Positions 13,786 through 17,680 of a stretch of 64,000 nt of DNA are shown here, in pieces (position 1 is the first letter of the stretch; each line of letters opens with the position of its first letter). The position numbers and the translations under genes are program-made. Origin of the DNA: Evansella sp. LMS18 (GTDB taxonomy: Bacteria; Bacillota; Bacilli; Bacillales; Salisediminibacteriaceae); the NCBI RefSeq assembly GCF_024362785.1, contig NZ_CP093301.1:3782001-3846000 (forward strand), written 5' to 3'. The notes under the pieces were generated by a model. That model was not told where the DNA came from. It saw only the letters and a program-made list of their open reading frames with translations, and did no database searches.

Positions 13786-14751
13786 ATGACATTATTCCGG
13801 CTTGGTTATGTAGCAATGAGTATGGAACTGAAGAATAGTTCTCCGTCGCAGACGATGACATATGCCCAATTTGAGAAAATAGCGAATCATGAAGGTGCTA
13901 AAAGGAAACTGGAAAGAATCGCCCAGTCAAACCTGAAGAATTGTCTCCGCCTGCTGAAACATAATGCAGCACATGATATCCGGTTTTTTCGTTTCAGTTC
14001 AAGAATTATACCTCTTGCTAACCATGAAGCTCTTGAGGAATGGGATTTTATGGCTCCATTGACAAGCCAGTTAAATGAAATTGGTGAATTTGTCAGCCGG
14101 AATAATATGAGAACAGGGTTCCATCCCGATCATTTTGTGTTACTTAATTCCCCGAAAAAAGAAATACTGAAAGCTTCTCTTCAGAATCTTCAGCTCCATT
14201 ATGATTTGCTAAAGAAAATGGGTAACGGAACGAAACATAAATGTGTCATCCATGTGGGGGGAAGTTATAAAAATAAAGAGATAGCTCTTGAACGTTTCGT
14301 AGAACACTGGGCATTTGTCCCCCGGCATATACAGGAAATGATTATTCTTGAAAATGATGATAAAACATTTAATCTGCAGAATACGTTGTATTTGTGCGAG
14401 AAGCTGAATATACCATGCGTTTTTGATTATCATCACCATCTTGCTAACCATGATGAAGCAAACTGGGTGGACTACTGGCCAAGAATTGTATCGACATGGG
14501 AGAGCTCTCCCCTGCCGGTTAAAATGCATATATCCAGCCCGAGGAGTCAGGAGCAGTTCAGAGCTCATAATGATTTTATAGACCTGGAGATGTTTCTGCG
14601 TTTTTTAAGAGAAGTGAATGGGACCGTTCCCCAGGTTGACTGCATGATTGAAGCTAAACAGAAGGACAGGGCTCTTTTTCGGCTCGTAAAAGAAATTGGT
14701 GAACGGGAGGATGTAACTCTCATTGATCATGCAAGCTTTAAAATAAGTTAA
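13786..14751 (+). CDS. uvsE: UV damage endonuclease UvsE
   Basis: The start is ATG 13786 behind GGGGGAGAGG; an upstream ATG at 13762 has no site. The 321-residue protein is a UvdE/UvsE TIM-barrel nuclease, which nicks DNA 5' of UV photoproducts and abasic sites. Conserved pieces visible are FRLGYVAMSM at the N-terminus, FRFSSRIIPL, TGFHPDHFVLLNSP (metal-binding His), IHVGGSYKNKE, ILENDDKTF (Glu ligand) and CVFDYHHH (Asp/His ligands). UvsE is common in Bacillus spores and desiccation-tolerant bacteria. It may be co-transcribed with the FAD oxidoreductase 25 bases downstream. Confidence 0.92.
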   Translation: MTLFRLGYVAMSMELKNSSPSQTMTYAQFEKIANHEGAKRKLERIAQSNLKNCLRLLKHNAAHDIRFFRFSSRIIPLANHEALEEWDFMAPLTSQLNEIGEFVSRNNMRTGFHPDHFVLLNSPKKEILKASLQNLQLHYDLLKKMGNGTKHKCVIHVGGSYKNKEIALERFVEHWAFVPRHIQEMIILENDDKTFNLQNTLYLCEKLNIPCVFDYHHHLANHDEANWVDYWPRIVSTWESSPLPVKMHISSPRSQEQFRAHNDFIDLEMFLRFLREVNGTVPQVDCMIEAKQKDRALFRLVKEIGEREDVTLIDHASFKIS

Positions 14752-14776
14752 CATTAAAAGAAGGGAGTGGTGGCAG

Positions 14777-15865
14777 ATGGCTGGAAAAATAAAAGTAGCA
14801 ATAATGGGAGCGGGGCTTTCAGGGTTGGCCTCAGCTATTATCCTTGAAAGACATGGTATAAAACCAGTTATTTTTGAAAAGCGAAGCCGCGTGGGCGATC
14901 GTTTTATAAATGGGGAAGCCCTGTTTTCTATTTTAAGCAGACCGGTTTACGACCCCGTCAGGTATCTTGCCGAACAGTTTCAGATTTATATTAAGCCAGT
15001 CAGCCATATTAATCGTCTGGAAATCAACGCACCTAACAAAAGAGCTGAAATAAATGAACAGATTGGTTTTATAAACTTGCGGGGAAGGCACCAGGACTCT
15101 TTTGACAGCCAGTTAGCGGAACAGGTGGCATCTGATATATTTTTCCATTCAGATTTTACATACGAGGAATTGCTCACTGCATATACGCATGTAATCGTGG
15201 CTACGGGGGACGCCAGGGATGCAATTAAACAAAATAATTACAAGGTGGACCGGACGGTAACGATAAAAGGGGCAACAGTTGAGGGCCGGTTCGATAATTA
15301 TTCGGTTCCTGTATGGCTGGACAACGATCTTCTTCCGAATGGCTATGCATATTTGCTTCCTTTCTCTGAAAAAGAAGCAGGTATAGCATTCGCATTGCCG
15401 GAACAAGAGGCTGTATCGTTCCATACTGACTTGATGTGGGAAGAGTTACACAGCAGGGTTTGTCAATATTACGAACAGCCTCTTAAGCTGACAGACCAGT
15501 TTCATATAAACGGGTACCAAATAGGAATAAGCAGACATTCCAGGATAGGGAACACTTTTTATACAGGCAATAACTTTGGATCGATTATGCCTTTTCTCGG
15601 TTTCGGACAGTTTGAGGCGATCCTTACAGGGGTTTTTGCTGCTCTCGACATATGTGGAAAAGGAAGCTACGAAAAATTGACAGAACCTCTTCGCAAGAGT
15701 TATTCTCGTTCTCTTACATTAAGGAACGCTTTTGAATCTCTTACCAATGATAAATATGATTTTATTGTCGGCAGGCTTAACGGCCAATTAGGAGAAAAGT
15801 TCTTCGAACGAAACGGGAGCAATCCATTAAAAATCATCAGTTTATTACTAAGACCCTTCGTATAA
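14777..15865 (+). CDS. FAD-dependent oxidoreductase of the geranylgeranyl-reductase-like group
   Basis: The 362-residue protein has an N-terminal dinucleotide-binding motif (GAGLSGLASAIILERHG, about 12-28, ending at the acidic residue in FEKR). A second FAD-associated motif, VIVATGDARDA, follows about residue 138. TGNNFGSIMPFLGFGQFEAI (about 272-291) resembles the GDAAGxxxPxxGxG region of PHBH/geranylgeranyl-reductase flavoproteins, but the usual Asp is replaced by Asn-Asn. The first part of the motif around residue 40 (RVGDRFINGEA) also fits. The substrate is not evident. It follows uvsE by 25 bases and ends in a terminator. Confidence 0.7.
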   Translation: MAGKIKVAIMGAGLSGLASAIILERHGIKPVIFEKRSRVGDRFINGEALFSILSRPVYDPVRYLAEQFQIYIKPVSHINRLEINAPNKRAEINEQIGFINLRGRHQDSFDSQLAEQVASDIFFHSDFTYEELLTAYTHVIVATGDARDAIKQNNYKVDRTVTIKGATVEGRFDNYSVPVWLDNDLLPNGYAYLLPFSEKEAGIAFALPEQEAVSFHTDLMWEELHSRVCQYYEQPLKLTDQFHINGYQIGISRHSRIGNTFYTGNNFGSIMPFLGFGQFEAILTGVFAALDICGKGSYEKLTEPLRKSYSRSLTLRNAFESLTNDKYDFIVGRLNGQLGEKFFERNGSNPLKIISLLLRPFV

Positions 15866-15881
15866 TTGCATAAATGATTGC

Positions 15882-15916
15882 AAATCCGGATTGGAATATT
15901 CTGATCCGGATTTTCT
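15882..15916 (+). terminator. Rho-independent terminator
   Basis: AAATCCGGAT (15882-15891) pairs with ATCCGGATTT (15904-15913), loop of 12, followed by TCTGTTTG. Confidence 0.6.
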
Positions 15917-15959
15917 GTTTGTATCTCGATACGTGCGGTCCGGGGTTAAAAAAGGTTAT

Positions 15960-16261
15960 TTAGTTTTTCTGTCGAATGAGTTAATTATTGAACTACTCAC
16001 CGCTTAACGACCTTACGGTCTGTTTGAAGCGGGAGATTCCTGCGAACACCAATGTATCCACTAGTTATTGAGCAGGCTCTACCCGTCGTCCCGACGGTGA
16101 AAGCTTAACTATCTTGTACGTTGGACTCGCCATACGCCCTACTTTAGCTTGGTTTTCGCAACTTCGGTGCGTATGGAGGCGATTAGAACGTTGAAGATTT
16201 TACCTAGCAGACGAATTTCCTGCTAGAACCTCATATCTTCAGTTTTCAAAGAACAACTTAC
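15960..16261 (-). ncRNA. Structured non-coding RNA resembling an omega-RNA / IS605-superfamily right end (no transposon protein)
   Basis: On the minus strand, a strong promoter (16268-16295) reads into about 300 bases with no open frame but many stems. These include TAGCAG/CTGCTA (near 16220), CCATACGC/GCGTATGG (about 16169 and 16129), and CCGTCG/CGACGG (near 16096). The 3' part reads GCAGGAATCTCCCGCTTC, then a hairpin containing GACCGTAAGGTC, then GTGAGTAGTTCA. This is the signature of the right ends of IS200/IS605/TnpB and IscB elements, where the element overlaps an RNA guide scaffold. The segment CGAGTCCAACG...GTTAAGC recalls my memory of HEARO-type scaffolds. No tnpB or iscB remnant is seen. 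Homology was not tested. Confidence 0.5.
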
Positions 16262-16267
16262 AAGTAT

Positions 16268-16295
16268 ATTATAGCGAATTTGTTCGAATTGTTAA
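16268..16295 (-). promoter_or_regulatory. Strong sigma-A promoter driving the structured RNA
   Basis: On the minus strand: TTAACA (16295-16290), 16-base spacer, perfect TATAAT (16273-16268). It is followed in the early transcript by GTTCTTTGAAAACTG (16254-16240), which resembles rRNA-operon boxA/spacer sequences of Bacillus. Confidence 0.7.
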
Positions 16296-16394
16296 ACAGT
16301 TTTGGCTAAAGTAAACCGACATTCATCTCCCCCTTATTTCTGGGCTATGCCTGCACAAAATTGAAGAGGGAGTCTTCTGTCGGAAAATGATAAA

Positions 16395-16800
16395 ATGAGT
16401 GAATTTCATATATAGGCTTTGAATAAAAAGGGGAACATTACTTTTCGATTGCAGCGTAAGACGGCGGTGACTGTCTCTTCCTCTGCTCCTGCGGTTACTC
16501 GTCGCAAAAAAAAAGACCTGCTCCTGCGGTTACTCGTCGCAAAAAGAGTTTTGCCAGCTTAGCTCCGTAGAATATACGTAGAGACAACTCGTTGTATTTG
16601 CGTGATGAAGATGCTCGTTCTTGCGGGAAAAACATGAGAAGCTGAAAATCCATTTTTGAGGATGTACAGCGGTCAAAAATTAATTGAAGCCGTGCTCGCA
16701 GAACGCGTCCGTCTGAAGTGTAAATCGAACAATAAAGTAACATTTTAAGATAGTGTTCGTATTAAAGATGAAAATCTTCAATTATGAAATTGATTCAAAT
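16395..16800. repeat. Mosaic repeat family B, long copy with internal family-C segment
   Basis: The outer parts (GAATTTCATATATAGGCT, TTTTCGATTGCAGCGTAAGA, GCAGAACGCGTCCGTCTGAA, TAAAGTAACATTTTAAGATA) are shared with 45206-45445. Between them, this copy has about 140 extra bases starting CTGTCTCTTCCTCTGC that belong to family C (60729, 62670). Within the insert a 28-base unit, CTGCTCCTGCGGTTACTCGT plus CGCAAAAA, occurs twice (16483-16510 and 16518-16545). The minus-strand open frame here is a by-product of the repeat. Confidence 0.8.
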
Positions 16801-16843
16801 GATTATAAATTTATATTCTGGAAGGAAATAACGGAGGGATACT

Positions 16844-17680
16844 GTGAAGCTTATTTCGATTTGCCCCAGTAATACAGAGCTCCTAGCTTATCTTGGGCTT
16901 ACTTCATCGCTGGCAGGAGTTGACGACTATTCCGACTGGCCGGAGGAGATAAATGATCTCCCCCGCGTTGGTCCGGATTTAAATATTGATATGGATAAAG
17001 TAGAGGAATTAAATCCGGATCTCGTTCTTGCTTCCCTGACTGTTCCAGGAATGGAAAAGAACATTGAGGAATTGGAGAAACGCCGGATTCCTTACTATAT
17101 TGTTCCGAATCCTGAGACGCTCACTGAAGTTGGCGACCAGCTTCTTCTCCTGGGAGAACTGACAAATCAGCAGAAAGCAGCAGAAAAGATGCATGATAAA
17201 TTTACTGCTGTTCTGAATGAATACAGGAAACTGAGCAGCACGGTCACAAAGAAAAAAAGTATTTACTGGGAGTGGTGGGCCAAGCCTGTCTTTACTCCAG
17301 GTGCAGGAAACTGGCTGACAGAGATCAGTGAACTAGCCGGAGGATATAATGTGTTTAAAGATAAGGAAGAAGCAAGTGTGCAAACGGACTGGGAGGATGT
17401 GAGGCTGAGAGAGCCGGAGATTATCGCTGTAGTCTGGGTAGGGGTCAGAAAAGAAAAGGTGAAGCCGGAAATCATCCTTAAAAGGCCATTATGGAAAGAA
17501 ATGGAGGCGGTGAAGAAACAAAACCTGTTTATTCTGGAAGAACCGCTTTTTTGCAGACCATCTCCAAGGCTGTTAACCGGTCTTCAAAGAATAGCGTCAC
17601 TGGCACATCCTGATATATTCCCAATGTACAAAGAGGGAAGCGACGTGCTCCTTGGTGATAAAGATGAATATGGCAAGTAG
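16844..17680 (+). CDS. Cytosolic cobalamin/iron-type substrate-binding domain protein (BtuF-like)
   Basis: The 278-residue protein starts with GTG 16844 behind GGAGGG. It has the fold of periplasmic-binding proteins for cobalamin and iron-siderophores: the N-terminal CPSNTELLAYLG...GVDDYSDWP, the first-lobe NPDLVLAS and a second lobe with PGAGNWLTEISELAGG followed by W.DV.LREPEII. Unlike transporter subunits it has no signal peptide or lipobox, so it is cytoplasmic, and no ABC permease or ATPase gene is nearby. Such soluble relatives are often annotated as cobalamin-binding proteins; the ligand here is inferred only. Confidence 0.7.
   Translation: MKLISICPSNTELLAYLGLTSSLAGVDDYSDWPEEINDLPRVGPDLNIDMDKVEELNPDLVLASLTVPGMEKNIEELEKRRIPYYIVPNPETLTEVGDQLLLLGELTNQQKAAEKMHDKFTAVLNEYRKLSSTVTKKKSIYWEWWAKPVFTPGAGNWLTEISELAGGYNVFKDKEEASVQTDWEDVRLREPEIIAVVWVGVRKEKVKPEIILKRPLWKEMEAVKKQNLFILEEPLFCRPSPRLLTGLQRIASLAHPDIFPMYKEGSDVLLGDKDEYGK

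Follow-up and report, generated by a model that had tools for sequence, protein, structure and literature searches.

An ORF-less IS200/IS605-type element in Evansella that probably encodes a guide RNA for TnpB supplied in trans

The feature analyzed here lies in a 64,000-nucleotide stretch of the Evansella sp. LMS18 chromosome (the window; NZ_CP093301.1, positions 3,782,001 to 3,846,000) and is best explained, with a probability of about 0.7, as a non-autonomous IS200/IS605-type transposon whose only predicted product is a guide RNA for TnpB acting in trans. Its users are probably DNA-cutting TnpB proteins encoded at other loci of this bacterium. The parts of the model that the sequence establishes are the insertion, its ends, the homology of its guide-RNA scaffold, a conserved leader structure, and one matched target in an empty site (Table 1).

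The limits of the element are given by a same-genus genome (G017) that lacks it. In a pairwise alignment with locus L046 of that genome, adjacent bases 6107 and 6106 align to the window up to 15987 and from 16390 onward; the flanks are ∼90% identical and window positions 15988–16389 are absent. The empty site reads TTTAT/TAATTAAC and the filled site TTTAT/C...TTCAA/TAATTAAC; equivalently, TTTAT is followed by TAATTAACTCATTCGAC when empty and by CATTTTCCGACAG...GAGTAGTTCAA and then TAATTAACTCATTCGAC when filled. At this one empty site, insertion is precise, 3′ of a short target, and no target bases are duplicated, which is the signature of IS200/IS605-type insertion, as for ISDra2 (PMC8612924). 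By the TnpB rule, TTTAT is a probable TAM.

A second copy on the same chromosome (4418726–4419071) is 84% identical and likewise follows TTTAT. Its similarity to the window element ends at GTGAGTAGTTCAA. A reading made beforehand from the letters of the DNA (the sequence-only reading) had recognized an IS605-like right end within a feature spanning 15960–16300, and had proposed a search for further copies. The right end stands, since the second copy stops there; the extent is corrected to 15988–16389, the left-end hairpin having been missed. Subterminal hairpins are present at both ends in the sequence and in the alignments, one being the left-end hairpin and the other a right-end stem, and aligned copies carry the left-end hairpin at the same place with a different sequence. 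No ORF of at least 60 aa overlaps 15960–16300, in keeping with the earlier remark that no transposase, TnpB, or IscB frame remains.

Table 1. Positions of the element and its predicted parts in the window
Feature	Position	Strand	Basis or remark
Whole ORF-less IS200/IS605-type element, 402 bp	15988–16389	−	Empty-site alignment with same-genus genome G017
TTTAT left of element, insertion target	16390–16394	−	Present in the G017 empty site
Left-end imperfect hairpin, CCGACAG...TGTCGG	16316–16383	−	Read from sequence
Promoter, TTAACA-16-TATAAT	16268–16295	−	11/12 consensus matches
boxA-type sequence, TGTTCTTTGAAAACT	16241–16255	−	One mismatch from TGTTCCTTGAAAACT of rRNA leaders
Leader module: boxA, clamp P1, and hairpin P2	16189–16255	−	Covariation, 26 chosen rows
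Clamp P1 (TGAAGAT/ATCTTCA)	16235–16241 with 16192–16198	−	Encloses P2
Hairpin P2	16219–16226 with 16204–16211	−	Inside clamp P1
Hairpin P3, conserved loop GCGAAAACCAAGC (16147–16159)	16130–16176	−	Re-dealing of arms
Putative TnpB omega-RNA (reRNA) scaffold, ∼117 nt, ending GAGTAGTTCAA	15988–16104	−	R2 homology to own TnpB ends
Predicted guide, 16 nt, TAATTAACTCATTCGA (flanking DNA)	15972–15987	−	Equals the sequence after TTTAT in the empty site

Beside the insertion, window positions 16483–16545 hold two copies, or nearly so, of CTGCTCCTGCGGTTACTCGTCGCAAAAA, which G017 also has without the element; the gene downstream of them resembles one for a substrate-binding protein. A group II intron match (L002:402–482; 47.4 bits, gathering score 40) lies ∼1.1 kb upstream of the second element copy. 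A phage origin of the element was dropped, as there was no match in phage records and no exact match to the leader pattern in viral contigs. Four plasmid records match the element, covering 20%–77% of the query.

The 3′ part of the predicted RNA is homologous to TnpB-linked RNA ends. A search of the same genome for TnpB, which the sequence-only reading had suggested, finds two genes (L035 and L036) with scaffolds homologous to that of the window. Both proteins contain HTH_OrfB_IS605, OrfB_IS605, and TNB domains (Pfam), and that of L036 aligns with ISDra2 TnpB across the RuvC motifs (E 9.4e-91). The RuvC triad D, E, D is readable in both, at what we presume to be the catalytic positions. The model R2, comprising 24 scaffolds (21 from leader-bearing elements and three linked to TnpB at L014, L018, and L049, with the genome's own two excluded), detects both of this genome's TnpB elements at their 3′ ends, with scores of 93 and 88 bits. 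These elements begin after TTTAT or TTTAA and end in GTAGTTCAA. On the Bacillus methanolicus plasmid pBM20, a TnpB-like coding sequence, unannotated in the record, is followed by a 78%-identical scaffold. With these two TnpB elements, the window scaffold shares only 71% and 72% identity, which leaves its recognition in trans uncertain.

The earlier proposal that an IS605-type right end yields an omega-RNA-like transcript with its own promoter and no ORF is supported, and action of this RNA in trans is plausible. Placement of the guide at the 5′ end, as in IscB RNAs, is not supported: because the scaffold matches ends that lie directly after TnpB genes, whose guide is 3′, the guide should be the 3′ flank. 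TnpB guides lie 3′ of the scaffold, and the length of ∼16 nt adopted here is taken from PMC8612924. At sequence level, and for one site, the flank of the element is identical to the bases directly after TTTAT where the insertion is lacking.

The near-consensus minus-strand promoter described in the sequence-only reading is confirmed, and is the best of 13 sites in 14500–17500; with a threshold of 9/12 matches, shuffled sequences contain 5.2 such sites on average. Of 60 relatives, 41 have a TAYNNT −10 element at the corresponding position (shuffled mean 9.3, maximum 20); that of copy L002, read from its sequence, is weaker than the window's. The boxA-type sequence follows. Three of eight weak extra query matches in this genome lie 98–99 nt before 16S genes and read TGTTCCTTGAAAACTGAA, one base off the TGTTCTTTGAAAACTGAA of the element leader. 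A fourth rRNA leader of this genome reads TGACCTTTGAAAACT, in longer form TGACCTTTGAAAACTAAA, and two rRNA spacers read TGCCCTTTGAAAACTGGA; all three are boxA-like with more mismatches than the other leaders. The exact 14-mer GTTCTTTGAAAACT is present only in the two elements. Thus the rRNA-like GTTCTTTGAAAACTG, from which a guide against an rRNA-linked locus had been conceived, is, by this comparison, the boxA-type sequence of the transcript itself and not a guide, and we rejected an rRNA target on the grounds that this boxA-type stretch is common to the copies.

In E. coli, NusB/NusE bind at boxA, and termination by Rho is prevented by the Nus complex (PMC5725501). The gamma-proteobacterial boxA consensus is GYTCTTTAANA (PMC5725501). 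The element resembles the rRNA system in that an untranslated RNA carries a boxA-type sequence close to its 5′ end, and differs in that its boxA sits on a transposon guide RNA, where antitermination would be a deduction from sequence; an RNA of ∼290 nt may not need it. CRISPR arrays reportedly carry boxA leaders. Shortly after boxA, the rRNA leaders of G000 (e.g., L122:1385–1495) contain CCAAGCGAAGTGGG, like the CCAAGC(G/T)AA...GTAGG of the elements, a possible second rRNA-like signal that is statistically weak. With the leader model R1, one rRNA leader and two spacers reach 12.8–15.8 bits (E 0.13–0.72); a resemblance between the P3 loop motif and the rRNA leader outside boxA is suggestive only.

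The window RNA folds better than its shuffles (z −3.69, with 0 of 100 as good), in keeping with the several strong stems seen earlier. In an alignment of 26 divergent leaders (A5), 11 of the 15 pairs of the clamp and its enclosed hairpin are changed on both sides and 96.9% of cells are paired, a figure that leans toward structure, the ends having been picked by us from the visible clamp; with the partners slid, 37%–47% are paired. A5 omits L142, L144, L145, L147, L149, and L150 as degenerate or redundant, a choice of rows that adds to this lean. Among 30 window-type copies (A2), 22 of 44 predicted pairs show changes on both sides; this set comprises 26 of the 27 non-redundant members of 54 window-type elements (from 65 matches), plus the window, L002, L011, and L048.

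Hairpin P3 follows the leader module. Its mean best stem is 7.6 bp, compared with at most 6.8 bp in 1,000 re-dealings of the arms. Stems of at least 6 bp are found in 20 of 26 copies (re-dealt mean 14.5, maximum 20), which is weaker evidence than the mean length. In L140, L143, and L151, the loop motif GCGAAAACCAAGC lies inside the first hairpin, and in the window type it lies in the second, so this may be a conserved submodule that moved, perhaps a protein-binding site. The window type could allow a switch in the leader, with the middle ATCTTC pairing either upstream or downstream; it was set aside, as the downstream partner was not seen to be kept in the other types.

The leader is not confined to this genome. 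There are 65 occurrences of its pattern, TTCTTTGAAAACTGAAGATANNRRGTT, in 64 genome stretches, which are named Evansella, Peribacillus, Lederbergia, Domibacillus, Priestia, Heyndrickxia, Metabacillus, Niallia, Neobacillus, Bacillus, Exiguobacterium, Paenibacillus, Seinonella, Trichococcus, or Bacillaceae. A right-end motif follows 224–303 nt after the leader in 58 of the 65, with no RNA-strand ORF longer than 85 aa there; of the remaining seven, four run off the end of their stretch and three have no right end nearby. Of 60 relatives, 49 show TTTATC where the left edge is expected (shuffled mean 2.4, maximum 8), the base following TTCA is A in 52 of 53 copies, and the 45 copies with both ends measure 362–441 bp (median 401 bp). 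At E 1e-4, R1 matches in 37 of 397 genomes of the order, representing 25 of 135 genera; the best eight candidates at most were scored per genome, so copy numbers are lower bounds. Across 19 divergent loci (some truncated) together with L051 and L064, the same leader module precedes various right ends: GTAGTTCAA, GTAGTTCAC, ...GGGAGTATCAG, ...GAGAGGTTCAG, ...GGGTTGTTGAC, ...GGGAGTATTCA, and ...GGGAGTGTCAA.

No TnpB was found by tblastn with seven TnpB-type proteins in up to 1,900 nt after 94 leaders, of which 84 had at least 600 nt (one further stretch was too short); this set includes the window copy and counts some copies twice, as the contig and genome sets overlap. R1 did not detect the genome's own TnpB elements either. 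These two results indicate that, as far as tested, the leader replaces tnpB and is not its 5′ UTR.

The same 12 bases directly follow the element in Bacillus canaveralius and Bacillus sp. V3-13 (L059/L105), and likewise in Exiguobacterium sibiricum and Exiguobacterium sp. RIT594 (L079/L082), which suggests insertions kept across speciation.

Several right ends joined to the leader also occur beside TnpB genes: of the four types tested, GTAGTTCAA, GGGAGTATTCA, and GGGTTGTTGAC do so and GTAGTTCAC was not found there. TnpB-linked scaffolds were sought for three non-window right-end types using five protein references (L042 is not TnpB and L041 is partial). They were found for two, in G086 and G078, whose indicated TnpB frames are confirmed by Pfam; for the third (G109, G205, and G374), these references gave no TnpB-linked copy of the leader-type scaffold. 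In G078, the leader-bearing scaffold L180 is 94.5% identical (137/145) to L181, which lies directly after a TnpB gene. G086 has 26 scaffold matches (L153–L178), several of them cut by contig ends; 15 have the leader, five lie directly after TnpB genes, and six do neither by these tests. The TnpB-linked scaffolds show 69%–72% identity; the 15 leader copies are 89%–100% identical to one of their own number. At least 15 leader-bearing, ORF-less copies compared with five TnpB-linked scaffolds amounts to an expansion in one genome.

TnpB (PF07282) is present in 30 of 37 leader genomes compared with 137 of 360 others (Fisher p 7e-7, uncorrected for ancestry), and in 13 of 13 genomes with leader matches at E <1e-20. 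At the threshold used, it was not found in seven of the 37, including G206 and G277, which have fairly good leader matches. Y1_Tnp matches occur in 18 of 20 genomes searched. Those of this genome number four (34–58 bits, in frames of 183–240 aa), and none is a canonical-looking Y1 TnpA; current movement here is therefore unlikely, and the two copies in this genome may no longer move.

The alternative that survives best, though we consider it unlikely, is a decaying, MITE-like leftover, in which a TnpB element has lost its gene and what is left of its RNA features has no present function. It would account for an ORF-less element with only two copies in this genome, differing by 16%, for the want of a canonical TnpA here, and for truncated or degenerate copies such as L012, L050, L144, L149, and L150; ends-only IS605 elements that keep the right end are known (PMC7290912). 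Yet conservation or covariation of the promoter, boxA, and paired stems extends over many copies and genera, and the close similarity of the 15 leader copies in G086 fits poorly with decay. Simple deletion also seems an unlikely origin for these copies, as none of the TnpB elements tested was found to have the leader.

We regard as improbable a decoy or regulator that sequesters TnpB or antagonizes TnpB elements instead of guiding cleavage. A strong promoter joined to a scaffold would indeed compete for TnpB, and a region of the AmaTnpB mRNA inhibits cleavage by the complex (PMC10278001), but the right end of the element runs straight into the flank, giving a usable guide, and the matching target stands beside TTTAT in the empty site. 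A domesticated guide regulating a host gene in trans, TldR-like, is less probable still, despite the stand-alone, self-promoted RNA and the post-element bases shared between species by L059/L105 and L079/L082. The sequence-only reading had raised domestication, and against it the insertion is absent from G017, the guide is the local flank and varies between copies, and the L036 TnpB aligns with ISDra2-type TnpB across the RuvC motifs (the catalytic positions being our assumption). Least probable of all is an IscB-type omega-RNA (HEARO) with a 5′ guide: ORF-less, stand-alone IscB RNAs exist, but the 5′ end here is occupied by the boxA-type sequence, the scaffold is homologous to TnpB-linked ends, and the covariance search proposed earlier gave no HEARO match in the window at gathering score, nor in 15850–16500 at E up to 10.

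For a transposon encoding only a guide RNA, we propose the following mechanism. RNA polymerase would start ∼5 nt before boxA, NusB/NusE would bind boxA, and the polymerase would complete the untranslated RNA without Rho termination. TnpB from elsewhere in the chromosome would then bind the scaffold, guided by the ∼16 nt of flank at the RNA 3′ end, and its target would be an empty copy of the site, TTTAT plus flank. Should an empty site be cut, the cell would copy the element back from a filled chromosome, and the element would thereby be kept or spread at no coding cost; such retention by repair after cutting has been proposed for TnpB (PMC8612924). Movement of the element would need TnpA in trans. 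Transcription, binding and use by TnpB in trans, antitermination, cutting of the empty site, and retention by repair are the steps that we infer. A broader model, which we put forward tentatively and at somewhat under even odds, is that a portable rRNA-style leader (promoter, boxA, and clamped hairpin) was repeatedly joined to different TnpB scaffolds, yielding RNA-only selfish elements that parasitize the TnpB and transposases of other transposons and make their guide by rRNA antitermination.

None of 4,227 Rfam families matches in the window at gathering score, and a lax scan of 15850–16500 (E ≤10) returns three weak matches; this means only that no Rfam 15 model covers these RNAs well. A self-splicing intron or IStron was rejected, there being no intron family among the matches up to E 10 in this interval. 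One of the three weak matches, Ref70 (RF02841, Enterococcus sRNA 70), spans the window scaffold at 15.7 bits (E 7.5), and spans both own TnpB scaffolds, also below threshold (L035:1398–1484 and L036:1382–1484, minus strand; E 0.026 and 0.074). These scores are far below its gathering score of 115 bits, and the leader lies outside the match. Ref70 gives no match at L002, L018, and L049 (E 10) and at L014, L052, L055, L173, and L181 (E 1). It is perhaps a distant relative of the window scaffold, and enterococci may use it as a guide RNA of TnpB.

Cas12 is regarded as a descendant of TnpB, whose guide is normally cut out of the TnpB mRNA, tying guide and nuclease in cis. Stand-alone IscB omega-RNAs come from guide RNA loci that lack a protein gene and probably act in trans; they have an IscB scaffold and a 5′ guide, in contrast to the TnpB scaffold and 3′ guide predicted here. 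TnpB-less copies with guides may also have been reported among Geobacillus elements. The closest parallel is the ISDra2 TnpB reRNA, which likewise has a right-end scaffold, a 3′ guide from the flank, and a target motif at the insertion site, and whose TnpB is a close sequence relative of that of L036. The known reRNA overlaps the tnpB 3′ end and can be cut from its mRNA (PMC8612924; PMC10278001), whereas the element described here has no tnpB, with a promoter and leader in its place. Palindrome-associated transposable elements (PATEs) and other ends-only IS605 copies are similarly short and ORF-less with both ends present, as in the ∼271-nt Halanaerobium PATE, which keeps the right end (PMC7290912), but the present family has a conserved leader common to many genera and several right-end types. 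RAGATH-18, the reRNA of IS607 TnpB, is also a TnpB guide scaffold that does not always lie beside TnpB: 64% (10,258/16,029) adjoin IS607 TnpB and 36% do not (PMC11061315). It belongs to another element family, and the accessible sections of PMC11061315 mention no boxA leader for it.

Among titles and opening parts of abstracts, mostly from open-access literature, none described a TnpB guide RNA with a boxA-type leader. What is new, as judged by these comparisons, is a leader made of a promoter, boxA, and a covarying clamped hairpin that precedes several right-end types. If the model is correct, this widespread family, whose guide has a promoter and leader to itself and whose members encode no nuclease, would show guide and nuclease parting in nature, resembling the step to the trans guides of CRISPR, and would be a direct parasite of RNA-guided transposons. 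R1 and R2 serve as search models for an RNA family that Rfam 15 covers poorly.

One contig bearing a leader copy, L075 (NZ_VTQV01000003.1, labeled Bacillus subtilis DE0224), matches L055 of Lederbergia galactosidilytica in spacing and in the position of its longest frame, and its species label may be worth checking.
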